Assembly (NCBI RefSeq): GCF_030055635.1
Contig: NZ_JASFYM010000015.1
Span: 1-47,910, forward strand
Length of the DNA stretch: 47,910 nucleotides
Reading direction: 5' to 3'
Source: Methanothrix sp.
GTDB taxonomy: Archaea > Halobacteriota > Methanosarcinia > Methanotrichales > Methanotrichaceae
This document shows, piece after piece, positions 25,048 to 36,618 of this stretch. The notes beneath the pieces are model-generated. The model worked only from the letters and a program-made list of their open reading frames with translations. It did not search any database and had not been told where the DNA came from. The translations under genes were made by a program, and so were the position numbers. Position 1 is the first letter of the stretch; the number at the start of each line of letters is the position of its first letter.

Positions 25048-25079
25048 CCGGGCGGGGGAGGCAGTGGCTCTGTTGCGCC

Positions 25080-25125
25080 CCCTCTCAGGCCTGAAGACCG
25101 GAGTTTGCGCCCTGCTGCTCTCCAT
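25080..25125 (-). repeat. solo tnpB 3'-end hairpin (REP-like copy d)
   Basis: CCTCTCAGGCCTGAAGACCG and GAGTTTGCGCCCTGCTGCTC form the reverse-oriented copy, encoding RAQTPVFRPERG on the minus strand. It sits between the converging leuS and DJ-1 genes. The rest of 25048-25223 shows nothing else. Confidence 0.78.
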
Positions 25126-25223
25126 CACCGTCGTGGCTGCTGTGCGATTGCTCCTGAACGCAGACCGAAGCTTCTGCTACCCTTCGCCCCCAAGAAGTAT
25201 AACGATCGCTCAGGCGGATCGTC

Positions 25224-25866: not shown

Positions 25867-25893
25867 CAGTCAAGCCCAAGCCAGCCTGAGTTT

Positions 25894-25966
25894 GGGGCCA
25901 TAGGGTAGCCTGGTATCCTACAGGACTGGGGGTCCTGTGACTCGCGTTCAAATCGCGATGGCCCCA
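25894..25966 (+). tRNA. tRNA-Pro (GGG)
   Basis: The acceptor GGGGCCA pairs perfectly with TGGCCCC. The anticodon arm CAGGA-CTGGGGG-TCCTG has anticodon GGG, and the T arm is TCGCG-TTCAAAT-CGCGA. The discriminator is A and no CCA is encoded. The gene is 73 bases and has no intron. Confidence 0.95.
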
Positions 25967-26142
25967 TAGGGGGACTGCTTTTTCATATGGGCTCATCGAA
26001 TTAGCGGATTGATCTTCAGAGATCCAAACTCGGCTCAATCCGGATCCACGATAATTCGCAGAGATGGGTCTGCACGGGTTTTTGCCATCAGGGTGATATA
26101 GATGCTCAAGATATCTGCCTCCACAGATGCCGTGGGAGATAC
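25967..26142. other. gap after tRNA-Pro, no gene seen
   Basis: No supported gene. The block ATAATTCGCAGAGATGGG near 26050 resembles a stretch near 11870, possibly the remnant of a repeated gene. Confidence 0.5.
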
Positions 26143-26505
26143 GTCAACTACTCCGGCCTGAAGACCGGAGCTTGTCCCTGGCGCCATGCGGAGAATCCTA
26201 CATGTCCGAGACAATAGGCCGGTTGACATCACAGGATAGAGCTCCGAAGAGCGGCGACCCTGGAGACGCTCCTGGCCTCAAATGCAGGTTTCAGCTTCCG
26301 CATTAGATGCGGATTCGGAGCGTTCCAAAATGCTTGTCATCATTCCGTGCAGGAACCGTTTCTCCGCTAAGGAGTGTCTTGTGGGGTCAGAAGGCATCTC
26401 AGGAGAAAGTAGTAGGAACAGAGATATATCTGTTTCTGGGTGGGGTACGCTCCTCCACGCCCGAATTGCAGGGTTTCCTCTACCCCTTCACCCCAGGAGG
26501 TTCTA
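26143..26505 (-). mobile_element. shortened TnpB element, derivative 1 (~363 bp)
   Basis: The left end in transposon orientation (AGAACCTCCTGGGGTGAAGG at 26504 leftwards) and right end (CAAGCTCCGG hairpin, then GTAGTTGAC) match those of the complete element at 33672-34898. On the reverse strand the part next to the right end still reads SRVAALRSSIL, then a stop, and finally QAPVFRPE and stop, the remains of a tnpB 3' end. About 90% of the element is also found at 35746-36111. It lacks a transposase and directly abuts the start codon at 26505. Confidence 0.85.
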
Positions 26506-27659
26506 TGAAGTTCGACGTTGCTGTTGTCGGTGCCTCGCCAGCAGGGCTCTCCGCTGCAGCAAGCTCTGCCCGCACCGGCGCGAGGACCGTGCTGTTTGAC
26601 AGGAATCTCGCATCGGTGCCGAACGCCAACACTGTATTCGATGGGATGGCAGCTGCTGCATCTCTGAATGTGGATCACTTCTCCATCCACCAGGTCATAG
26701 GCATGCGGCTCGTATCCCCCTCGGGACGCATTCTTGAGATAGATGCGAGAGGCCACTTTCTGGACAGGAAGAGGTTTTACGCTCATCATCTGAACTTCGC
26801 AGCAGACTGCGGAGCTGAGATCGTCGAATCAGAAGTCAGATCTGTTTCGAGATCCGCAGATGGTATGGAGCTTTCGCTCTCCTCCGGAGATGTGATCGAT
26901 GCCATGATCGTCATAGATGCTGGTGGTGTGGATTCCAGGCTTGCATCATCCATGTTCAAAACCATGCGTCATCCCGAGGACGTGGCCTGGGCTGTGGAGG
27001 TCGATGTCCGATATCCGGGCATTGGGGAGGAGTATCGATTCGAGTACTGGGTGGGGAGCATAGCACCTGGATGGAAGGCCACATTCTCTCCGGCAGGCGA
27101 CGACATGGCAACGCTGGGAGTCTTTGTGAGGCGGCATGGTAGAGATGTCCAGAGGTTTCTGGATTTGTTCATAAGGAGGTTCATCAACAGAAGGGCTGGT
27201 TCGTACCCCGGCATCGAGCGAATGGAGATCCTGGAGACCCGGCGTGGAGGAGACCCGATCGCAGCGCTCCCTGGTAGAATTGTGGATAAAGGCATCATGG
27301 TCACGGGCGGGGCTGCAGCCCAGAGCGGGCTTGCGTACTCGATGCGCGCAGGAGAGATATGCGGAGAGGTTGCAGGCAGAGCTGCACTCGCCGGGGATGC
27401 ATCCAGGAAGCGCCTCTCAGAGTACAGCAGGAGATGGTGGCGGGAGCTCGGTCCTCAGTACGTCCTGGGAAGGGCATCGCTTGAGACATTGAGATCGATG
27501 AGCGATGCGGAGATCGACAGGCTCTTTCTAGCCCTCTCCGGCCGCAATCTGCTGGTACCCGGAGGTCTGTGGAAAAAGAGCGCAAACGCATTTCTGAATG
27601 TGACAAGATCCGTGCCGGGCATGCTGCCGCGATTTCTTCTAAATCTGCTGCGCTTTTGA
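26505..27659 (+). CDS. geranylgeranyl reductase-family flavoprotein
   Basis: The 384-residue FAD-dependent oxidoreductase begins MKFDVAVVGASPAGLSAAAS with a dinucleotide-binding loop. It carries the second FAD motif near IDAGGVDSRLASS and the late GGAAAQSGLAYSMRAGEICG that contacts flavin in the GGR/UbiH group. Such enzymes saturate archaeal lipid chains or modify related isoprenoids; which one applies is not clear. The ATG at 26505 uses the last base of the neighbouring miniature element, and AGGAGG at 26494-26500 lies within that element. A frame continuing upstream to 26307 is element sequence, not gene. Confidence 0.82.
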   Translation: MKFDVAVVGASPAGLSAAASSARTGARTVLFDRNLASVPNANTVFDGMAAAASLNVDHFSIHQVIGMRLVSPSGRILEIDARGHFLDRKRFYAHHLNFAADCGAEIVESEVRSVSRSADGMELSLSSGDVIDAMIVIDAGGVDSRLASSMFKTMRHPEDVAWAVEVDVRYPGIGEEYRFEYWVGSIAPGWKATFSPAGDDMATLGVFVRRHGRDVQRFLDLFIRRFINRRAGSYPGIERMEILETRRGGDPIAALPGRIVDKGIMVTGGAAAQSGLAYSMRAGEICGEVAGRAALAGDASRKRLSEYSRRWWRELGPQYVLGRASLETLRSMSDAEIDRLFLALSGRNLLVPGGLWKKSANAFLNVTRSVPGMLPRFLLNLLRF

Positions 27660-27673
27660 GATCTCAGGAGCAC

Positions 27674-28114
27674 TCACTTCCGGCTCTGCTTCTCATCCCA
27701 CCACCCGATCTTCGCATCCGGAACGCAATCAATCCCCGGGGAGTACGGCTTTATATCGATCAGCGGCGTGCCGTTCAGAGCATCCAGACCTCTCACCCGC
27801 AGCCTCCTCCCCTCCACAGATAGCAGCTCTGCGACGCTGAATGCCACCGGATTCGGCCTATCAGGGGATCGAGTTGCGAAGACCCCATGGACACGTCCGT
27901 CATGAGGCGGCACGGCCCTGAGCCTGGTCCTGTCTGCCCTGTCCAGCCAGTACAGAACTATGAGATGCGTGCACTTGTCGAGATCCATGAGCCCCTCCTC
28001 AAACTCGGGGAAGATCTCTATCTCGCAGATCTCTCTTGAGACCCTGCCCTGATGCGGCGCCTCGGCCCTGCTGCTGAAGGGCGTGCGGATCACCCCAATG
28101 GGTCTAAGCACCAT
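27674..28114 (-). CDS. TrmO-family tRNA methyltransferase
   Basis: This small beta-barrel SAM-dependent enzyme of the TrmO (YaeB/VirR) family methylates N6-threonylcarbamoyladenosine at position 37 of some tRNAs in bacteria. Signature stretches are MVLRPIGVIRTPF, the HLIVLYWLDRADR region and HGVFATRSPDRPNPVAFSVA. I use ATG 28114, preceded by GGAGAG, giving 146 residues. Starts at 28126 and 28141 are possible. It lies 51 bases after the CooC-like gene on the same strand. Confidence 0.85.
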   Translation of the reverse strand: MVLRPIGVIRTPFSSRAEAPHQGRVSREICEIEIFPEFEEGLMDLDKCTHLIVLYWLDRADRTRLRAVPPHDGRVHGVFATRSPDRPNPVAFSVAELLSVEGRRLRVRGLDALNGTPLIDIKPYSPGIDCVPDAKIGWWDEKQSRK

Positions 28115-28165
28115 GTTGCTCTCCATCTCTCTGCTTTCCATAGTATTATCCTCACATCCTTCGAT

Positions 28166-28921
28166 TCACATAGGTTTTAACAGCCTGTCGGCGATCTCTT
28201 CCATGATCCCTGCATCTGGCAGTGCCTCGCCGGTAAGGCTTGCTCTGAAGATATCCTTTCTTTTCGGTATCACGCCGATGACTCTGTCCCTGTCGATCAT
28301 ATCCAGGATATCCTCAGAATCCTCATCGATCCTGTTCACTATGAAAAGCACATCTTTTCCAATCTTCCTGCCCATTTCAGCTATCTTCCCAGAAAGCTGT
28401 ACAGATTCGTAGCATGGATCTATGACTGCGACGATCTTATCGCAGCCGGCCTCCACTCCTCTCCCGAAGTGCTCTATTCCGGCATCTGTATCCACGATCA
28501 CATGCTCCCCATCGGTCCTGAGCTTCTCCAGAAACTCCCGGGCGAGGGCGCCCATGGGGCACGCGCACCCCTCGCCGAAGTCGTGGATCTTGCCTATCGC
28601 CACGAGCTTTATCATCTCATCTCCAACCATGACATCAGGTGGTATATCCCCCACCCGAAACTCCTCAGGAATTATGCTGAGCGCCTCTCTCCTCTCAGAT
28701 CTTATGAAACGCATCAGCCTCTCGCTTAGCGCCCTCTTTCCTCCGAGAGATTCCATGAAGTCTCTCGGCTGATCAAAGCCGAGCATCCTGTAGATGCCGA
28801 AGTTCGACTCATCGGCATCGACCACAAGAACCCTTGTGCCCCTCCTGGCAATCTCTCTTGAGAGGAGAGCTGCAACGGTGCTCTTGCCGCTCCCGCCCTT
28901 GCCGCATATCAGTATCTTCAT
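28166..28921 (-). CDS. CooC-like metal-insertion ATPase
   Basis: This 251-residue MinD/CooC-type P-loop ATPase has the deviant Walker A GKGGSGKST (residues 7-15), DADESN, and a CAC pair at residues 119-121 within GEGCACPMGALAREF. That CxC pair is the nickel or zinc site of CooC, which loads nickel into carbon monoxide dehydrogenase. An acetate-using methanogen needs this for CODH/acetyl-CoA synthase. GGAGG five bases before ATG 28921 fixes the start. It follows the substrate-binding protein gene by 19 bases, so the two are almost certainly cotranscribed. Confidence 0.9.
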   Translation of the reverse strand: MKILICGKGGSGKSTVAALLSREIARRGTRVLVVDADESNFGIYRMLGFDQPRDFMESLGGKRALSERLMRFIRSERREALSIIPEEFRVGDIPPDVMVGDEMIKLVAIGKIHDFGEGCACPMGALAREFLEKLRTDGEHVIVDTDAGIEHFGRGVEAGCDKIVAVIDPCYESVQLSGKIAEMGRKIGKDVLFIVNRIDEDSEDILDMIDRDRVIGVIPKRKDIFRASLTGEALPDAGIMEEIADRLLKPM

Positions 28922-28940
28922 ATACACCTCCAAAAAAATT

Positions 28941-30473
28941 TCAGGCCAGGAAGGCCAGCTTGTTCAGCGGGATCGGCACCCCGCTTCCCACGCCGTTCTT
29001 GGTGTAGAAGAGATCGACCTTCCCGTCATGCGCCCAGTATGTTGTTGGATAGTACAGCGGAAGCGCTGGGAGTTTCCGTGCATAGACTTCCTGTATCTCG
29101 TTCACCAGCTCTCTCCTCTTCTCCGGATCCATCTCTGCGATCTCTCTCCTCAGGAGATCACTCAGCTCCGGATCATCGTATCTGGCGCTGTTGAATCCAG
29201 CTCCCGTGATCACCTTGTTCAGTATCGCCGGATCTCCGCCCATCCCGCCATGGCCGCTGAGCGCTAGATCGAATTTCCACTCGTTGACCGCGTTATCAAG
29301 GGTCTTCGAGTCGACGCTGCGCATGTTGACCTTTATGCCCGCTGCCTCCAGGTCGTTCTTTATGAGCTCGCCAGCACGCTCGTTGCTGGATGTGACAAGA
29401 AGCTCCACCTCCAGCGTCTTTCCGTCCTTCTCGAAGAATACTCCCTTCTTCTCATAGCCCATCTCCTTCAGCAGATCTCCCGCCTTCCCCGGATCGTGGG
29501 CGTACTGCTCAACATCAGGATTGTACCACTCGCTGTCAGGCGCGAAGAGGCCGGGACTTGCGGGAACACCGTATCCACGCTGGGCTATCTCGACGAGCTT
29601 CTCCCTGTCTATGGCGTATGCAAGGGCCTGTCTGAACCTCACATCGGAGAAGGGCTCCTTCTTGTGGTTTATCATCAGCTTCGCGAGCCAGTCGTGAGCG
29701 CTCTCGAGAACGACGAAGCTGCTCCTGAGCCCATCAGCGACCTCTGGAGGCACAGAGGCTGCATCGACCTCGCCGCGCCTGAGCGCCGGGCCGGACATCT
29801 CCGCGCTCAGCTTGACAAACTTCAGCTGCTTCACCTTCGGGGCGCCCTGGTAGTAATCATCATTCGCCTCGTATAGGTAGGTTCCCTGAGCCTTGCTGTA
29901 ATCGACAAGCTTGAAGGGACCGGTGCCTGTAAGCGCCTTTGCATCCTGGAAATCCTCCGGATTTGTCACATCACTGTAGATGTGCTCCGGAAGGATCGGC
30001 AGCGTGCCTGCGACCTGGTCCAGGAAGGGCGCATACGGCTTCGTCAGGTAGATCTTCACCGTGTGATCATCGATCTTCTCGGCTCTATCCACACTGCTGC
30101 TGTCGACCCACTGGTACGGATGCTCTTTTATGTAGTTGATTGTGAAGACAACATCGTCCGCTGTGAACGCCTCCCCATCATGCCACTTCGCATTCGGATT
30201 CAGCTTGAAGAGGTACGCGTTCTCATCCTTCAGATACTCCCAGCTCTCTGCAAGCGCAGGCACGAAGCCATTCTGATCCTTCCAGACCAGGGTATCGAAG
30301 ATGAAGCTCATCCGCACGTATCCAGGACCTCTGGAGTAATGGAGATACGGCGATGGGTACCCCCAGTCCCCGGTCGTGTCCGCTATCGTGTATACCGGAA
30401 TATCCTCTGCAACTGCCGGCAGAAGGAGCGATATCAGCACGGCAGTGCAGAGGATCTTTATCCATCTGCTCAT
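28941..30473 (-). CDS. ABC-type peptide/nickel substrate-binding protein
   Basis: The 510-residue secreted protein has a signal peptide (WIKILCTAVLISLLLPAVAE) and the SBP family 5 fold of oligopeptide and nickel binders. Visible features are PALAESWEYLKDENAYLFKL, the KWHDGEAFTADDVVFTINYI signature and DVRFRQALAYAIDREKLVEI. No lipobox cysteine is present. The neighbours (CooC downstream, secreted FmdE protein upstream) suggest a metal chelate as ligand, but the fold also fits peptides. No permease or ATPase genes for it lie in the window, so partners must be encoded elsewhere. Confidence 0.88.
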   Translation of the reverse strand: MSRWIKILCTAVLISLLLPAVAEDIPVYTIADTTGDWGYPSPYLHYSRGPGYVRMSFIFDTLVWKDQNGFVPALAESWEYLKDENAYLFKLNPNAKWHDGEAFTADDVVFTINYIKEHPYQWVDSSSVDRAEKIDDHTVKIYLTKPYAPFLDQVAGTLPILPEHIYSDVTNPEDFQDAKALTGTGPFKLVDYSKAQGTYLYEANDDYYQGAPKVKQLKFVKLSAEMSGPALRRGEVDAASVPPEVADGLRSSFVVLESAHDWLAKLMINHKKEPFSDVRFRQALAYAIDREKLVEIAQRGYGVPASPGLFAPDSEWYNPDVEQYAHDPGKAGDLLKEMGYEKKGVFFEKDGKTLEVELLVTSSNERAGELIKNDLEAAGIKVNMRSVDSKTLDNAVNEWKFDLALSGHGGMGGDPAILNKVITGAGFNSARYDDPELSDLLRREIAEMDPEKRRELVNEIQEVYARKLPALPLYYPTTYWAHDGKVDLFYTKNGVGSGVPIPLNKLAFLA

Positions 30474-30585
30474 ATCCTACATCTCCTTTTTGTCATATTA
30501 GTATGAGAATTTCTCTGCATATATGAAGTCTTGTGTCATTAAATAGTATCTTTGATGCAACATCTTATAATAAATCTGGTTCAGT

Positions 30586-30624
30586 AATTCAATCTGGCGA
30601 ATAAAGTATCCGGGTTATTGAATT
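30586..30624. promoter_or_regulatory. inverted repeat ahead of the substrate-binding protein gene
   Basis: AATTCAAT at 30586-30593 and ATTGAATT at 30617-30624 form 8-bp perfect arms with a 23-base spacer, about 115-150 bases before the start codon. It is a possible operator; the spacing is loose and this may be chance. Confidence 0.3.
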
Positions 30625-30669
30625 GCATCACAAGTTACTAAATAGATGGGAGCGGTGAAGGCCTTCGCC

Positions 30670-31755
30670 TCACATCACTCCTGCAACCTTGAGGGGATGC
30701 ATGCCAGCGTTCTGGAGCTGAGCCAGCCTGTTCTGGTCGACCTGGAACCTCTTTATAACGCTCACCGCGACCTCCGGCTCATCCCAGTAGTCCATCATGC
30801 GAAGATCCATGACAAGCTTCGGCGCCCAGGTGGGTCCCTTCCAGTCCTTAGTCCCTGTGAGCTCATACATCCTGGTCCAGTTGAAGCTCAGAACCAGTGC
30901 ATCTCCCTGCTTCGCGGTATCATTCCATCTCACGAATATCCCCGCGACGTCGCTCTGGTTGTACTTCGCCTTGAGTGCGTTCTTCTCCGTATCAGTAAGA
31001 GCCATGACGAAGATGCCGCTCTTCCCGACTGTTGCATCCCAGAGGATCTGGAGCGCGTCATCCTTGCACCATGGGGGCACTGCTATCACCTTGTAGCTCT
31101 CAGCGCTGCTGTTTATCGGCAGCTCCTTCTCCACGTACTTCGCGATCATGTAACCGCTGGTGACCCCAGGGCAGAGATGATCGTGGAATGACGCAGCCTG
31201 AATGAAGTCAAAGCTGGCGTTCCTCGCCCACACATTTGAGATGCCCACAAGCGAGAACTCGTTTCCGTCGAAGATCCTCTCGTTGAACGTCCTGTTGCCC
31301 TCATCGCTGTTGTTCAGCATGTAATCGAGATCCACGTTTGCCTTTGAGATCCTGGAGAACACAGCGTCATCAGGCGCAGACCTTAGTTCCTCCGGGCGCA
31401 TCGAGAGCGCCTCTGGTTTCACCTGCAGATACAGAGCCTCTCCGTTCTCCCTGTTGAAGAAGTAGAACCAGAGCGGCTTCCAGTGGGGCCTCAGAACCTG
31501 AAAGAGGTTTCCGTCGCCCTGAGAGCATCCTGTGGTCTCTGAGAGGCCCTTCAATGCCTTCTGGGTGGTCATGCCTGAGACGATCGCATAGCCAGCATTC
31601 GTCAGAACAAGTATGTTCCCATCGCCTCTCTCGAAGGATAGCTCGCTCATAGCCTTCTCCGCAGCTTTGACACCAACCCCCTGAATCACGCCATCATCTG
31701 CAAGCGCACACGATATCAGGAGAATGGTGATGCAAATACTGCCCAAAACTCTCAT
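30670..31755 (-). CDS. secreted FmdE-domain protein
   Basis: ATG 31755 gives a 361-residue protein with a signal peptide (MRVLGSICITILLISCALAD). Its first half is an unclassified domain (ILVLTNAGYAIVSGMTTQKA, SQGDGNLFQVLRPHWKPLWF), and its second half an FmdE domain with AASFHDHLCPGVTSGYMIAK and a VPPWCKDDALQI metal cysteine. The HDHLCPG motif corresponds to HGHMCPG in the gene at 1-281. Secretion is unusual for a domain best known from cytoplasmic enzymes and suggests extracellular metal or metal-chelate capture. It precedes the substrate-binding protein gene by about 200 bases. Confidence 0.82.
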   Translation of the reverse strand: MRVLGSICITILLISCALADDGVIQGVGVKAAEKAMSELSFERGDGNILVLTNAGYAIVSGMTTQKALKGLSETTGCSQGDGNLFQVLRPHWKPLWFYFFNRENGEALYLQVKPEALSMRPEELRSAPDDAVFSRISKANVDLDYMLNNSDEGNRTFNERIFDGNEFSLVGISNVWARNASFDFIQAASFHDHLCPGVTSGYMIAKYVEKELPINSSAESYKVIAVPPWCKDDALQILWDATVGKSGIFVMALTDTEKNALKAKYNQSDVAGIFVRWNDTAKQGDALVLSFNWTRMYELTGTKDWKGPTWAPKLVMDLRMMDYWDEPEVAVSVIKRFQVDQNRLAQLQNAGMHPLKVAGVM

Positions 31756-31778
31756 CACATCATCACCGAGTTTCGTAT

Positions 31779-31808
31779 CAATATACTACTATTTAAGATT
31801 AATCTTAA
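31779..31808 (-). promoter_or_regulatory. promoter with 16-bp palindrome ahead of the secreted FmdE gene
   Basis: TTAAGATTAATCTTAA at 31793-31808 is a perfect 16-bp palindrome. A TATA-like TAGTATATTG on the reverse strand (31779-31788) lies just downstream of it, 24-33 bases before the start codon. A dimeric regulator bound at the palindrome would touch the position of the TFB recognition element. Confidence 0.5.
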
Positions 31809-31995
31809 CAATTGTAGCAAGAAATGATTATTTGGTTCTACTTTTCAGATGAAAGCTACCACCTCTGCTGTATACCTTCAATCGGTTTGTGTGCTCAGAT
31901 CATTGAGCCCGGCAGCAGGTGACATCGCAGGATTTGTGATCCTCAAGCAGCATCGATCGCCAAAGCTTTTTATGTTCCCGGAGAGACTCGCTCTC

Positions 31996-33213
31996 ATGGA
32001 GATACTCGCAGATGTTGGCGGCAGGCCCGGCATCGATTGCGGTGGCTTCTGCGCCTACTGCTACTTCAGGGGCGTGAAGCCGGTTCCGCCCTTTGGCTGC
32101 AAGCACTGTCTTCCTTTCAGGAAGGGCTGCGATTACTGCACAAGGGCCATAATCGAGGGTTACCCGGGCTTCAAGCCGCTTGATGCGGTTGTATTCGATG
32201 TCGCCCAGGCCTCTTATGGCGCCAGGCCGGACAAGGTGACCATAAGCGGTGGTGGAGACCTGAGCTGCTACCCGGATCTCCTGAAGCTCGTGAGAATTCT
32301 TGGTCAGAAGAACGTACCGGTGCATCTGGGCTACACCAGCGGCAAGGGCTTCAGGCGGGGAGATGAGGCAGATGAGCTTGTGGACGCAGGCGTCAGAGAG
32401 GTCTCATTCACCGTCTTCGCCACAGATCCCGAGCTGAGGCGCAAATACATGCATGATAAGCATCCTGAAGCAGCACTCTCGAATCTCAGGATATTCTGCG
32501 AGAGGTGTGATGTATACGCGGCAGCTGTCCTGCTGAAGGGTGTGAACGATGGAGAGGTGCTTGAGAGAACATGTCAGGATCTCGAGGATATGGGTGCAAA
32601 GGGACTGATCCTGATGAGGTTCGCAAACCATCCTGAGCAGGGATTGATACTTGGAAACGCGCCCATAATCCCCGGGCAGGATGTCCACACCGTCGAGGAG
32701 TTCAGGGATACCGTCACAGAGATGAACCGGAGGTACAGGATCAGGATAACCGGAACTCCGCTGTGGGATCCGGAGACGAAGGCGCCATTCTCCCTGGCTC
32801 ACAAAACCGATAGACTGAAATCTCTTCCGGAGCTGAGGAGATCTGCGACAATCATCACAGGATCAATAGCTGCTCCGCTGCTGGAGAGGATATTCTCCGC
32901 CCTCGGTGGAGATGTGAATGTCGTCGCCACAAAGAAGGATGTCGCATGCCTCATGACCATAGATGATCTCAAAGACATCGATCTCTCCAGGGTCAAGAGG
33001 ACTGTCGTCATTCCGGGGAGGATGCTTGCACATGAAAGGGAGGTGAAAAAGGAGCTCTCGAGGGATGGTATCGACAGGCTGATCGTGAGAGGGCCGGACA
33101 GGCTCACGGTCGATGGCGAGATGAGCATCTCCATGACAGAGGAGGAGGTCGTGGAGCTCGAGCTCGAGGCCTTCGCCGAGCTGATCGACGAGATCAACGC
33201 TCTCGGCGTGTAA
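31996..33213 (+). CDS. mmp10: methanogenesis marker 10, McrA arginine C-methyltransferase
   Basis: This radical SAM, B12-dependent methylase places the 5-C-methyl group on an arginine of McrA. The first residues MEILADVGGRPGIDCGGFCA carry the radical-SAM cluster cysteines C15, C19 and C22. A cysteine-rich segment follows at C35, C38, C45 and C48, as is typical of the family. The remainder includes a TIM-barrel core (VTISGGGDLSCYPDLLKLVR) and the C-terminal metal and cobalamin region. I start at ATG 31996 (405 residues), about 24 bases after a TATTTTTAT-like box within CAAAGCTTTTTATG. The longer frame to 31849 is not family-like. Confidence 0.93.
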   Translation: MEILADVGGRPGIDCGGFCAYCYFRGVKPVPPFGCKHCLPFRKGCDYCTRAIIEGYPGFKPLDAVVFDVAQASYGARPDKVTISGGGDLSCYPDLLKLVRILGQKNVPVHLGYTSGKGFRRGDEADELVDAGVREVSFTVFATDPELRRKYMHDKHPEAALSNLRIFCERCDVYAAAVLLKGVNDGEVLERTCQDLEDMGAKGLILMRFANHPEQGLILGNAPIIPGQDVHTVEEFRDTVTEMNRRYRIRITGTPLWDPETKAPFSLAHKTDRLKSLPELRRSATIITGSIAAPLLERIFSALGGDVNVVATKKDVACLMTIDDLKDIDLSRVKRTVVIPGRMLAHEREVKKELSRDGIDRLIVRGPDRLTVDGEMSISMTEEEVVELELEAFAELIDEINALGV

Positions 33214-33243
33214 TAAGAATCGCGAATGCGGAGAAGATCGCGG

Positions 33244-33663
33244 ATGCGAGGCATCTACACACTGATACTGGGCCTGGAGCACGGGATCAGAATAAAGGTG
33301 GGCTCGCTCGGCGAGATCATGTTTCCGGAGGGCTGCTACGCGTACACCGGCTCTGCCCGCGGCCCTGGCGGCTTCAGGCGGATAAAACGCCATATTGCCG
33401 TGATGAATGGAGAGAACGCCACGCGCCGCTGGCATATCGATTATCTTCTTCCATACGTCACTCTGAGGGATGTGATCACCACAGCAACTGATATGGATCT
33501 TGAATGTGAGGCTGCCAGGAGGATCGGCGTGAATTGCATCCCTGTGCCGCGTTTCGGATGCACCGATTGCAGATGCACGAGCCACCTGCATTACAGCTCG
33601 AGTTACACAGAGATCGTGTCCGCGTGCAGGGAAGCTCACAGAGATCTGCTTCAGGAGCTCTGA
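33244..33663 (+). CDS. DUF123 (GIY-YIG-like) protein
   Basis: The 139-residue DUF123 domain appears here as a single-domain protein. It begins MRGIYTLILGLEHGIRIKVG and includes GCYAYTGSARGPGGFRRIKR HIAVMNGENATRRWHIDYLL and a CTDCRCTSHL cysteine/histidine cluster near the end. DUF123 is distantly related to GIY-YIG nucleases and is often fused to endonuclease III, so a nucleic-acid role is likely but unproven. It follows mmp10 by about 30 bases. The left end of the TnpB transposon begins 9 bases after its stop. Confidence 0.82.
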   Translation: MRGIYTLILGLEHGIRIKVGSLGEIMFPEGCYAYTGSARGPGGFRRIKRHIAVMNGENATRRWHIDYLLPYVTLRDVITTATDMDLECEAARRIGVNCIPVPRFGCTDCRCTSHLHYSSSYTEIVSACREAHRDLLQEL

Positions 33664-33786
33664 GCCGTTCATAGAACCTCCTGGGGTGTAGGGGTAGCGG
33701 AAACCCCGCTCTTCAGGGCGGGGAGGAGCGTACCCCACCCATATGCATCGGAATATCCAAATAGTGTATGAACGTATTCTTCAATA

Positions 33787-34893
33787 ATGCTTCAGACTCT
33801 GATGGTCAGGCTCGATCCAGACGAGGAGCAGTACAGGATCCTTTTGGAGACGATGCACCGCTTCAATGAGGCATGTAACTACATTGCGGAAGTAGCGTAC
33901 TCCATCGGGAAGGCTAACAAGTACGTGGTCCACAAGGCAGTTTACTACGACGTTAGGAAGCGATTCGGTCTCTCCGCACAGCTCACAGTCAGAGCGATCT
34001 CCAAGGTTGTTGAGGCATACAAGCGAGACCGATCTGTTAAGCCGCATTTCAGGCCTGATGGCGCGGTCGTGTATGATCAGCGCATACTCTCCTGGAAGGG
34101 ACTTGAGGCGGTCTCGCTGACAACACTTGAAGGCAGGCAGCTTATCCCCGTCAGGATCGGTGACTACCAGAAAGCTCGAACGGATCGAGTCCGTGGACAG
34201 GCAGATCTTATACTCAGAAACGGTGTCTTCTATCTCGCTGCTGTCGTTGAAGCTCCAGAGGAGACTCCCTACGAGCCCAGGGGAGTTCTGGGTGTCGATC
34301 TCGGAATCAAGTATATCGCTGTCGATTCTGATGGCGAGATACACAGCGGCGAGAAGCTCTTGGAGACCAGAAAGCGGCTTGATTCGCTCAGAGCTAGACT
34401 CCAGAGCGTGGGTACCAGATCTGCTAAAAGGCATCTCAAGAAGCTCTCCGGCAGGATGAAGCGATTCACCAGGGATGTCAACCATCGCATCTCCAAGCAT
34501 ATAGTCGCGAAGGCCAAAGACACTCTCCGCGCAATCGCTCTTGAGAACCTCAAGGGCATCCGGAGAGCACCGGTTGGAAAGGCTCAGCGTCGCGACAAAC
34601 ACGCCTGGAGTTTTGATATGCTGAAGAGATACATCCCCTACAAGGCGAAACTGCTCGGTGTGCCGGTTGTGTTCGTGGATTCGAAGCATACGTCCCAGAC
34701 ATGTCCCTCCTGCGGACACGTTTCCAAGAGCAACCGCCCTGCCAGAGATTATTTCAGATGTGAGTCGTGCGGCTTCGCTGGGTTCGCAGATCACATCGCT
34801 GCGATCAATATTGCGTCCAGGGCTGCTGTCAACCAGCCTATTGTAGCGGTGCATATGCATCAGTTACAAGCTCCGGTCTTCAGGCCGGAGTAG
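33787..34893 (+). CDS. tnpB: TnpB RNA-guided nuclease
   Basis: The 368-residue RuvC-fold nuclease of the IS200/IS605 group cuts DNA using an RNA guide made from its own 3' end. The RuvC residues are Asp171 (GVDLGIKYIAV), Glu253 (ALENLKGIRR) and Asp335 (FADHIAAINIA). A zinc ribbon sits at C306, C309, C325 and C328 (CPSCGH, CESCGF). The final QAPVFRPE is encoded by the right-end hairpin. The third motif reads DHI where DHN or DLN is usual; the catalytic Asp is kept. The reading frame is intact, so the protein may be active. Confidence 0.92.
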   Translation: MLQTLMVRLDPDEEQYRILLETMHRFNEACNYIAEVAYSIGKANKYVVHKAVYYDVRKRFGLSAQLTVRAISKVVEAYKRDRSVKPHFRPDGAVVYDQRILSWKGLEAVSLTTLEGRQLIPVRIGDYQKARTDRVRGQADLILRNGVFYLAAVVEAPEETPYEPRGVLGVDLGIKYIAVDSDGEIHSGEKLLETRKRLDSLRARLQSVGTRSAKRHLKKLSGRMKRFTRDVNHRISKHIVAKAKDTLRAIALENLKGIRRAPVGKAQRRDKHAWSFDMLKRYIPYKAKLLGVPVVFVDSKHTSQTCPSCGHVSKSNRPARDYFRCESCGFAGFADHIAAINIASRAAVNQPIVAVHMHQLQAPVFRPE

Positions 34894-34898
34894 TTGAC
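34780..34898 (+). ncRNA. predicted omega-RNA scaffold overlapping the tnpB 3' end
   Basis: In this family the guide RNA spans the last ~100 bases of tnpB, ends in the right-end hairpin and continues into flanking DNA as the guide. Here the hairpin is CTCCGG (34871-34876) with CCGGAG (34885-34890), and the predicted guide starts just after 34898 with ATGGCCTCCT. The exact 5' end is not visible. Confidence 0.45.
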
Positions 34899-35110
34899 AT
34901 GGCCTCCTGAATCAACAGCATTTTATTCCCAGCTCATACGACAGGACAAACGCGCATGCAGCCGTTAAACGGGCAGAACCAACTGCAATCGCCTCAGCTC
35001 AGCTACACTGATTGCAGGATGATAGCATTTGGCACAGGCTTTGGTGCCGGATCACCGGCAGCTGCGCCTAGATATCATCCACGAAGACCGGAGCTGCTCC
35101 CGGATTTCCG
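34899..35110. other. gap after the TnpB element, no gene seen
   Basis: No coding frame resembles a known family. A weak GAAGACCGGAGCTG near 35084-35097 may be a further worn copy of the tnpB right-end hairpin. Confidence 0.4.
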
Positions 35111-35443
35111 TCAGGATAGCCTTCTCAGCTCCTCAAGCAGCAGCGCCTCCTCATCGCTGAGCGGCGGCTCATCATCATCCTGGATCGTATCTACGACCTG
35201 ACGTATGGCTATCCCCACCAGGAGCCCTTTGAGGAAAGATACTCGCTCCTCATCAACGATGGATGACACGACCCTGTGGATGTATCTCTCCAAAGTTGTG
35301 CCGGGTATCGTTCTGTACGAGTTCAGCTCGTACACAACGCTGAAGATCTCGTCCTCGAGGAATCCGAGACTTCTGAGGAAATCTGCGATATCCACCTCGT
35401 CCGAGCCCTGCGTGGCCACATAGCCCGTGTAGCCATAGTTCAT
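35111..35443 (-). CDS. hypothetical 110-residue protein, acidic C terminus
   Basis: The reverse-strand frame reads MNYGYTGYVATQGSDEVDIA and ends DDDEPPLSDEEALLLEELRR. Secondary structure looks helical throughout, with a conserved-looking LRSLGFLEDEIFSVVYELNS stretch. No family is recognised. A TATA box (GGTTATATAC on the reverse strand, about 35465-35474) lies about 25 bases ahead of the ATG, giving a nearly leaderless message, and codon use resembles neighbouring real genes. Confidence 0.65.
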   Translation of the reverse strand: MNYGYTGYVATQGSDEVDIADFLRSLGFLEDEIFSVVYELNSYRTIPGTTLERYIHRVVSSIVDEERVSFLKGLLVGIAIRQVVDTIQDDDEPPLSDEEALLLEELRRLS

Positions 35444-35474
35444 GCTTAATCATTAAGTTTTTAATGTATATAAC

Positions 35475-35745
35475 CTTAGCTGAGGCTTGAGGATGTAGGA
35501 GCATTATCTCGCTCAGGGCATGCAGCATATAGAGTTTCTGCTCTCAGGACTTCTGCATGTAGGCGCATGTGCTTCAGCGCAGCTTGTTCTTGTCGCTGCA
35601 GCTCGGTGCCGGATGCGTGCATGTTGATCAGCAGCGCTCATCCTGCACAGGCCATCTAATGCAGCTCTCTCCTGTTCAAGCCCAAGGTGGTGTGCTCGAA
35701 TAACTGAATGATTCTGCTGAAAGCGACAGCTATGGACGAGATGCA
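35475..35745. other. gap ahead of the second shortened element
   Basis: About 270 bases without a convincing gene or signal. Confidence 0.5.
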
Positions 35746-36111
35746 ACGTCAACTACTCCGGCCTGAAGACCGGAGCTTGTCCCTGGCGCCATGCGGAGAA
35801 TCCTACATGTCCGAGACAATAGGCCGGTTGACATCACAGGATAGAGCTCCGAAGAGCGGCGACCCTGGAGACGCTCCTGGCCTCAAATGCAGGTTTCAGC
35901 TTCCGCATTAGATGCGGATTCGGAGCGTTCCAAAATGCCTATCGTCATTCCGTGCTGCAACCGTTTCTCCGCTATGGAGTGTCTTGTGGGGTCAGAAGGC
36001 ATCTCAGGAGAAAGTAGTAGGAACAGAGATATATCTGTTTCTGGGTGGGGTACGCTCCTCCCCGCCATGAATGGCGGGGTTTCCGCTACCCCTACACCCC
36101 GAGAGGTTCTA
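35746..36111 (-). mobile_element. shortened TnpB element, derivative 2 (~366 bp)
   Basis: This is the near-identical partner of derivative 1, in the same orientation. It has the right-end hairpin CTCCGG-CCTGAAGA-CCGGAG at its left edge and the left-end hairpin with CCCCGCC-ATGAAT-GGCGGGG at its right edge. Internally it keeps the same worn tnpB tail. Its left end is followed by AAGACC in place of the TGAAG seen at derivative 1, so the flanking pentamer is not shared here. It needs TnpA in trans. Confidence 0.85.
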
Positions 36112-36618
36112 AGACCGTTCGCGATATCTTCAGCGCTAGGTACATCTCTTCGCGCGCAGCGTTGTTTGAATTCGGATATCATCCGGAAGATTTAAGTAAG
36201 TAAATTTGTCTATACTCAAAATATCTGGATAAAATCCAGATGCCATATAGCACCCGGTGAGAGGGTCTCCTCCCTGGATCTGCGTCCAACCTCTCACCCA
36301 ATTCCAAATATTTTGCGTGAAGCTTGGTGTTCTGCTGAGTGCTTGAATCAACTGATGTTGCAGAAATCAATAGCAGGTGCTGAACTCAAATGCTTCCGAC
36401 GCCATATGCACTACCACCCAGTGCGTATGTGTGAGTGTATCACGAAGGCAGAATGCACTGGTGACTTCCTCTCAGGCCTGAAGACCGGAGCTTGCGCCCT
36501 GTTATTCTCTGTCAGCAGAATACGGTTGCACCGGGCAGCTGGATAAACCGAATGCATCACATGGTTTTCTTGCCATCTCCAACACCTATTTTAATATAGA
36601 TGTTTTAACCGGAATACC
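36112..36618. other. gap ahead of the DUF3467 gene
   Basis: It holds a REP-like hairpin (36462-36515) and an AT-rich stretch with TATTTTAATATAGATG near 36588-36603, a likely promoter about 15-30 bases ahead of ATG 36619. No gene is supported in the rest. Confidence 0.5.
36462..36515 (-). repeat. solo tnpB 3'-end hairpin (REP-like copy e)
   Basis: TGACTTCCTCTCAGGCCTGA and AGACCGGAGCTTGCGCCCTG, then TTATTCTCTGTCAG, form the best-preserved reverse copy. On the minus strand it encodes LTENNRAQAPVFRPERKSP, nearly the same as copy a. Confidence 0.82.

Follow-up and report, generated by a model that had tools for sequence, protein, structure and literature searches.

Gene-less derivatives of a TnpB element in Methanothrix keep a predicted omega-RNA scaffold

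TnpB is said to spread or keep mobile elements, reportedly in work by Meers from 2023. In other members TnpB has been described as an RNA-guided nuclease (PMC8612924; PMC10097598), and for plasmids a role in spreading or keeping elements has been reported (PMC11870625). The solved guide RNA (omega-RNA) of ISDra2, which comes from an element with its own tnpB gene, consists of stem 1, a pseudoknot between the pre-guide bases and an upstream strand, stem 2, stem 3 and a stem 4 with a UUUA tetraloop (PMC10097598), and in another TnpB a pseudoknot is necessary for activity (PMC10711439). IS200/IS605-associated guide RNAs are also expressed in archaea (PMC12558985). Palindrome-associated transposable elements (PATEs) are short, non-coding elements of Haloquadratum walsbyi described in 2011, some of them 52-bp terminal-only forms that arose by a core deletion mediated by repeats (PMC3119063), and a PATE-like element of Halanaerobium hydrogeniformans of about 271 nt is made of 28 nt of left end, the last 58 nt of tnpB and the whole right end (PMC7290912). 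Here we analyze a 47,910-nt stretch of Methanothrix sp. (the window, which is contig C15 of a 1.76-Mb genome in 33 contigs) that carries a complete TnpB element and two short derivatives, a and b, without the gene.

The derivatives are PATE-type deletion forms of an IS200/IS605-type TnpB element and as such of a known kind; the new part is the nearly perfect predicted omega-RNA scaffold that they contain. Like the H. walsbyi PATEs they are short and non-coding, have near-terminal palindromes and no target duplication, and are related to or derived from IS605/IS1341-type elements. They differ in that the kept segment is tested here as an omega-RNA scaffold, whereas the part of PMC3119063 drawn on here makes no link to guide RNAs. 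The Halanaerobium element is of the same internal-deletion type; it differs in being bacterial and single-copy and, in the part of PMC7290912 cited, it comes without a guide-RNA test. With the ISDra2 omega-RNA our right ends have in common stem 1, the pseudoknot with the pre-guide bases, stem 2, a terminal stem with a tetraloop, the guide at the right-end boundary and a target-adjacent motif (TAM) 5' of the target, TTGAT in ISDra2 and TCAT-type here (PMC10097598); unlike ISDra2, seven copies here have no tnpB of their own. The main text of PMC12558985, on archaeal omega-RNAs, does not use the terms PATE, MITE (miniature inverted-repeat transposable element), non-autonomous, in trans, TnpB-less or standalone, and among the literature matches listed no title or abstract start ties PATE- or MITE-like TnpB elements to guide RNAs. 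Judging from the sequences, the gene-less derivatives keep a predicted omega-RNA scaffold and are likely, if far from certainly, a source of guide RNAs for loading in trans by the full-length TnpB proteins of the genome.

The TnpB element and its gene-less derivatives

That a complete element and two derivatives with both ends in common lie in the window, as a sequence-only reading had proposed, is borne out by sequence comparison, and the exact bounds lie within 1-2 bases of those first given. The features are as follows.

33673-34898, + strand: complete TnpB element, 1226 bp, AGAACC...GTTGAC
33787-34893, + strand: tnpB gene, 368 aa, with RuvC residues D171, E253 and D335 and two CxxC pairs
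33668-33672, + strand: TTCAT, target- or TAM-like, left of the complete element; the orthologous site of the congener G043 has TCAT and a diverged right flank
34820-34898, + strand: scaffold predicted for the omega-RNA of the complete element, with GGGCTG/CAGCCT as stem 1, GTCAAC/GTTGAC as pseudoknot, then stem 2 and the terminal hairpin
34899-34918, + strand: predicted guide region of the complete element, in the flank, ATGGCCTCCTGAATCAACAG; length set after ISDra2 (16-nt guide segment)
26143-26504, - strand: derivative a, PATE-type, 362 bp
26143-26260, - strand: scaffold predicted for the omega-RNA of derivative a, with GGGTCG/CGGCCT as stem 1; 27/27 pairs
26123-26142, - strand: predicted guide of derivative a, GTATCTCCCACGGCATCTGT
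26505-26509, - strand: TTCAT, the target of derivative a; on the other strand ATGAA, at the start codon of a reductase-like gene (26505-27659)
26495-26500, + strand: AGGAGG from the left end of derivative a, Shine-Dalgarno-like, 4 nt before the ATG at 26505
35748-36110, - strand: derivative b, PATE-type, 363 bp; left target degenerate (GTCTT)
35748-35865, - strand: scaffold predicted for the omega-RNA of derivative b, with stem 1; 27/27 pairs
35728-35747, - strand: predicted guide of derivative b, GTTGCATCTCGTCCATAGCT

The TnpB of the window (368 aa) scores 173 bits against NF040570 (cut-off 100). In this copy, the only one aligned with solved Cas12f/TnpB-like chains, the catalytic residues D171, E253 and D335 are kept, and its zinc ribbon has both CxxC pairs (CPSC and CESC). 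Genome-wide we found two complete tnpB frames, on C15 and C5, and fragments on C17 and C3; a third complete gene is likely split over contigs C6 and C20. The assembly breaks within tnpB copies at the contig ends of C6, C17 and C20. The closest named relative of the gene, 77% identical, is in a Methanothrix metagenome-assembled genome.

Seven full-length derivatives of 358-367 bp, all having both ends in common with the complete element, are present in the genome, and derivatives a and b are 98% identical over 300 nt. The right-end hairpin said to be retained in the derivatives is a real match, since its 16-nt pattern occurs at 59 sites with at most one mismatch in 1.76 Mb and the reversed control pattern at none. 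The derivatives had also been credited with a worn tnpB tail ending in QAPVFRPE. This tail is present, but its reading frame is lost: in the two of the seven derivatives that were translated (C15a and C6) the VNRPIV and QAPVFRPE blocks lie in different frames, whereas in tnpB they lie in a single one. Protein coding therefore does not explain why the segment was retained, and the RNA fold that it keeps gains in weight. The 85-nt spacing is identical in 7/7 own derivatives. Subterminal palindromes stand at both ends, as in IS200/IS605 elements, and the right end was folded. The derivatives are short and non-coding, with near-terminal palindromes, no inverted terminal repeats and no target duplication at clean sites, all of which are features of PATEs; they are not MITEs in the strict sense because their ends differ in sequence and no target duplication is seen at clean empty sites. 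About 70-100 nt from the left end is an AT-rich block in an element of 55-58% GC, compatible in sequence with a promoter. Upstream of the scaffold, the stretch 26261-26350 and its counterparts in the other derivatives, with a CCGCA/TGCGG hairpin, are fairly conserved (74.1% identity between own copies and 8 of the 11 congener copies, some of them without the left part); a repeat of this stretch was looked for in the tnpB element and none was found.

Fold and conservation of the right ends

Single-sequence folding gave the same three helices in 16 of 21 right ends, namely a closing helix GTCAAC/GTTGAC, a helix TTGT..C/G..ACAA and a terminal hairpin CTCCGG..TTCA..CCGGAG with a TTCA or TTTA tetraloop. 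The other five (L106, L109, L123, L124 and L137), all congener right ends, partly fold otherwise. Compared with shuffles, five right ends gave z values of -2.6 to -6.1, and 0, 0, 1, 4 and 0 of 200 shuffles were as stable. Set against the ISDra2 plan, the closing helix takes the place of the pseudoknot, TTGT..C/G..ACAA that of stem 2 and the hairpin that of stem 4; this plan leads one to expect a stem 1 around GTCAAC, and it was found there. Stem 1 reads GGGCTG/CAGCCT in the own tnpB copies and GGGCCG or GGGTCG with CGGCCT in the own derivatives, and the Methanoperedens-like tnpB loci offer further compensations (AGGGCG/CGCCCT and CCGTTG/CAGCGG). Stem 1 is separated from the pseudoknot strand by 2 nt in the tnpB copies of this genome and by 27 or 32 nt in its derivatives. 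In the own tnpB copies, as in seven distant tnpB loci, the scaffold stands at the right end and overlaps the 3' end of tnpB. As modelled, the right ends keep an ISDra2-type omega-RNA plan. At the gathering score Rfam gave no match over the elements in the window, and a permissive search of three loci returned just one tRNA and weak C/D-box matches. One of the weak ones, to archaeal C/D-box small-RNA families and below the gathering score, is at 35123-35180 (- strand). A tRNA-Pro (ggg) at 25893-25967 was called by ARAGORN and, on a smaller stretch, by Rfam; it is absent from the whole-window Rfam gathering run.

The 21 right ends (18 distinct) pair in 95.5% of cells, against 23.5-42.8% when the partners were slid. 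A covariance model built from these copies found the fold at the tnpB 3' end of 7/7 further loci (L095-L101; E 7e-14 to 4e-10) from Methanoperedens-like archaea, Methanomassiliicoccus and Freyarchaeota, none of which had been used in building it. In all, the model search, from which four loci (L102-L105) were left out, gave 38 matches from 41 sources, with L111, L113, L118, L119, L188 and L190 unmatched. The 38 rows (34 distinct) pair in 92.0% of cells against 28-50% after sliding, a figure that favours pairing because the alignment was fitted to the structure of the model. Over all helices except stem 1, 15 of 21 pairs changed on both sides among the 34 distinct right ends (6.9 in shuffles), as did 62 cells (18.8 in shuffles), and 0/500 shuffles were as good. 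Stem 1 was counted separately, with its positions in the derivatives taken from an anchor pattern and the offsets of some distant tnpB loci set after the stem-1 result had been viewed, which again favours pairing. Covariation across TnpB elements and derivatives is strong, and the test that the sequence-only reading had set for itself, conservation of the scaffold stems between copies, thus came out in its favour, with compensatory changes between tnpB elements and derivatives.

The own derivatives keep 188/189 pairs, the single break being in copy C2b (26/27), and 11 copies of sister species keep 244/289; three of the 38 rows, neither tnpB nor derivative, were set aside in this count, and one congener row without a recognisable stem-1 strand was counted on 21 pairs. 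For ten of these 11 copies the genome gives no tnpB match at E<=1e-25; at E<=1e-3 tnpB fragments appear in G043 and one weak match in G044. The contrast between 188/189 and 244/289 fits upkeep where TnpB is present, with age and descent not separated from it.

The alternative that survives best, though we consider it rather unlikely, is that the derivatives are fossils, the scaffold persisting through youth or by inheritance from an intact element, with no guide RNA made or used. Several results speak for it and against a working role. When the derivatives are taken by themselves (16 distinct), covariation does not stand out clearly from shuffles (the score was reached in 34/500 shuffles, the number of paired cells in 114/500 and that of pairs changed on both sides in 332/500), so that descent, and not selection acting on them, may account for the fold. 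Nor is the scaffold specially conserved in the orthologous pair formed by own copy C2b and C58 of G043, where it is 83.5% identical and one internal stretch 93.3%. The congeners G043, G044 and G045 have scaffolds without a comparable tnpB. In the family 29/50 genomes have a scaffold match at E<=1e-10, some of these overlapping a tnpB 3' end (in G016, for example, C1:969219-969293 with tnpB at 968175-969242), and 8 of the 29 are without a tnpB match at E<=1e-25. The own copies may be intact mainly through youth. Against the derivatives being fossils stand the 188/189 pairs kept by the own copies, including C2b, whose insertion is common to G043; the scaffold is also the most conserved region among own copies (C2b against six others: scaffold 93.1%, left end 81.2%, elsewhere 75.8-87.7%), and the coding frame is already gone.

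Insertion sites, left ends and predicted guides

Eleven of the 14 left ends in the own genome match [T/C/A]TCAT. We searched the genus for empty sites with the joined flanks of 7 of 11 sites, and four gave base-exact empty sites with neither duplication nor loss: C4 (TTCAT|TCAGCC), C2a (TTCAT|GGT), C2b (ATCAT|ATAGAG) and the tnpB site of C5 (CTCAT|GAAGGC). The C2b alignment is clean with one own base more, the C22 and C6 sites aligned in pieces only, and for the solo S_C4 the genus search gave no clean empty site. The insertions (4 clean of 7 sites) thus lie as those of IS200/IS605 elements do, 3' of a short motif and without target duplication. From the clean empty sites it follows that the element begins with AGAACC (or a variant) and ends with GTTGAC, and that the bases after GTTGAC are those that follow TCAT in the empty allele. 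At C4 (G043), C5 (G043, G044, G045) and C2b (G042, G044, G045) the flank agrees with an empty allele in all of its first 16 bases; at C2a the best empty allele agrees in 14/16 (G043). In the window, the G043 sites of the tnpB element and of derivative a have TCAT-type motifs with a diverged flank or a 9-base difference. For derivative b the comparison with G043 gives no clean site, as about 60 extra bases adjoin the right end of the derivative, and the degenerate target motif of derivative b (GTCTT) is a further point against working guides. The 57 bp adjoining derivative b (35686-35742), which are missing at the G043 site, have a second copy at C5:68179-68235.

Since insertion is directly 3' of TCAT, the flank of each element would be a guide against its own empty site. 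The geometry needed for guides taken from the own flanks, as had been suggested, is in place, with a right end that adjoins the flank, a TCAT-type target at the left end and four base-exact empty sites; taken as a whole, the earlier suggestion is supported in part. As predicted from these sequences, a guide RNA ending in the flank would match the empty site beside the TAM and not the filled one. In the mechanism that we favour the derivatives would be transcribed and processed to omega-RNAs, and a full-length TnpB from another copy would load the derivative RNA in trans. The guide would be the 16-20 nt of flank adjoining the right end. In an element-free allele this sequence lies directly 3' of the TCAT-type motif, which would be the TAM; in the occupied allele the element stands between motif and guide sequence, so that the copy would be spared from cutting itself. 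TnpB would then cut alleles without the element, repair from the filled copy would restore it, and in this way short forms that lack tnpB would hold on to their sites.

The same insertion rules would also be followed if the conserved fold worked not as RNA but as single-stranded DNA, recognized by a Y1 transposase supplied in trans, and TnpA does bind subterminal hairpins of IS200/IS605 ends (PMC7290912). We regard this as improbable. Stem 1, pseudoknot and stem 2 extend about 80-118 nt inward and fit the omega-RNA plan, and a hairpin for the transposase would presumably not need them; the own genome, moreover, has no match to the Y1 transposase (PF01797) in a search that gave one match in G042, none in four other congeners and positives in 5/14 control genomes. 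The missing Y1 match counts against guide-making derivatives as well: no mover or excising agent of the elements is seen in the genome, so the past movement evident from the empty sites needs a source not seen there.

Read on the other strand TTCAT is ATGAA, and in the outward direction the left end finishes in CCCCAGGAGGTTCT. At several left ends, including 26495-26509, AGGAGGTTCT stands directly before ATGAA starts, and relatives have AGGTGATTCT, AGGAGATTCT and GGAGG variants there. The Shine-Dalgarno-like AGGAGG at derivative a may be a ribosome-binding sequence. One could then suppose that the derivatives are kept for their effect on neighbour genes, the left end standing at a start codon and supplying AGGAGG and possibly a promoter, the latter in keeping with the AT-rich block. 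Of 27 left ends (14 own and 13 from relatives), 10 abut the ATG of a frame of at least 150 codons, against 61/496 ATGA sites in the window (p 9e-4); these 10 include the C15 tnpB site, with a 269-codon antisense frame that lacks a Pfam match and is probably there by chance, and the C6 tnpB site was counted with its boundary moved by one base for a left-end deletion. A Pfam domain begins within the first 9 residues in 5 of 14 scanned frames (C15a, C2a, C6 tnpB, C31 at a 4-base offset and C64 of G043), begins further in in 2, and is lacking in the remaining 7, which tells against an effect on genes. Tolerance of insertions at start codons explains the pattern too, and the conserved right end would be left unexplained; retention through an effect on neighbour genes is the least probable of the alternatives, though by a narrow margin.

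Other repeats of the genome touch on the same hairpin. Solo repeats of about 50 bp, at 2323-2376, approximately 25079-25127 and 36461-36514 in the window and at about 30 sites over the genome, have the layout (T)TGAT-AGAGARTAACAGGGCGCAAA-CTCCGGTCTTCAGGCCGGAG-AGGAAGTCAC, and look like left ends of a second TnpB family joined to the right ends of that family at a common 20-bp palindrome, in the manner of solo long terminal repeats. Among the 59 hairpin sites 27 are clear and 4 partial left-end/right-end fusions. They resemble the 52-bp terminal-only PATEs (PMC3119063). As extra guide loci the solo hairpins were set aside, having the terminal hairpin only and no scaffold. L018:1501-1564 (C1, from 6898) looks like another solo form, in which the two family-A ends meet close to the loop of the hairpin; the short stretch TTCAGG is all that these ends have in common there, so fusion may not require a long direct repeat. 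The TGAT-like target supplies, with its TGA, the stop codon of a frame of at least 80 codons in 9 of 34 solo or left-end copies, against 38/514 TGAT sites (p 6e-4). A repeat of about 60 bp at 31882-31941, with copies on C3 and C2 and in congeners, is possibly a further end-only element.

Possible guide-RNA-only elements

Taken further, and more tentatively than the loading in trans itself, the derivatives may be guide-RNA-only mobile elements, which have no protein gene, would borrow TnpB in trans and would be retained through the cutting of element-free alleles; with a motif that is the reverse complement of ATGAA starts and a ribosome-binding sequence in the left end, their insertion at a gene start would be tolerated. 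Since 2011 the literature has treated PATEs as remnants of IS605-type elements. If their guide RNAs work, TnpB-aided retention would extend to copies without the gene, and one TnpB would serve many sites. The derivatives would then also be a natural example of guide loci uncoupled from the gene of the nuclease, which is a step in the direction of CRISPR-Cas12.

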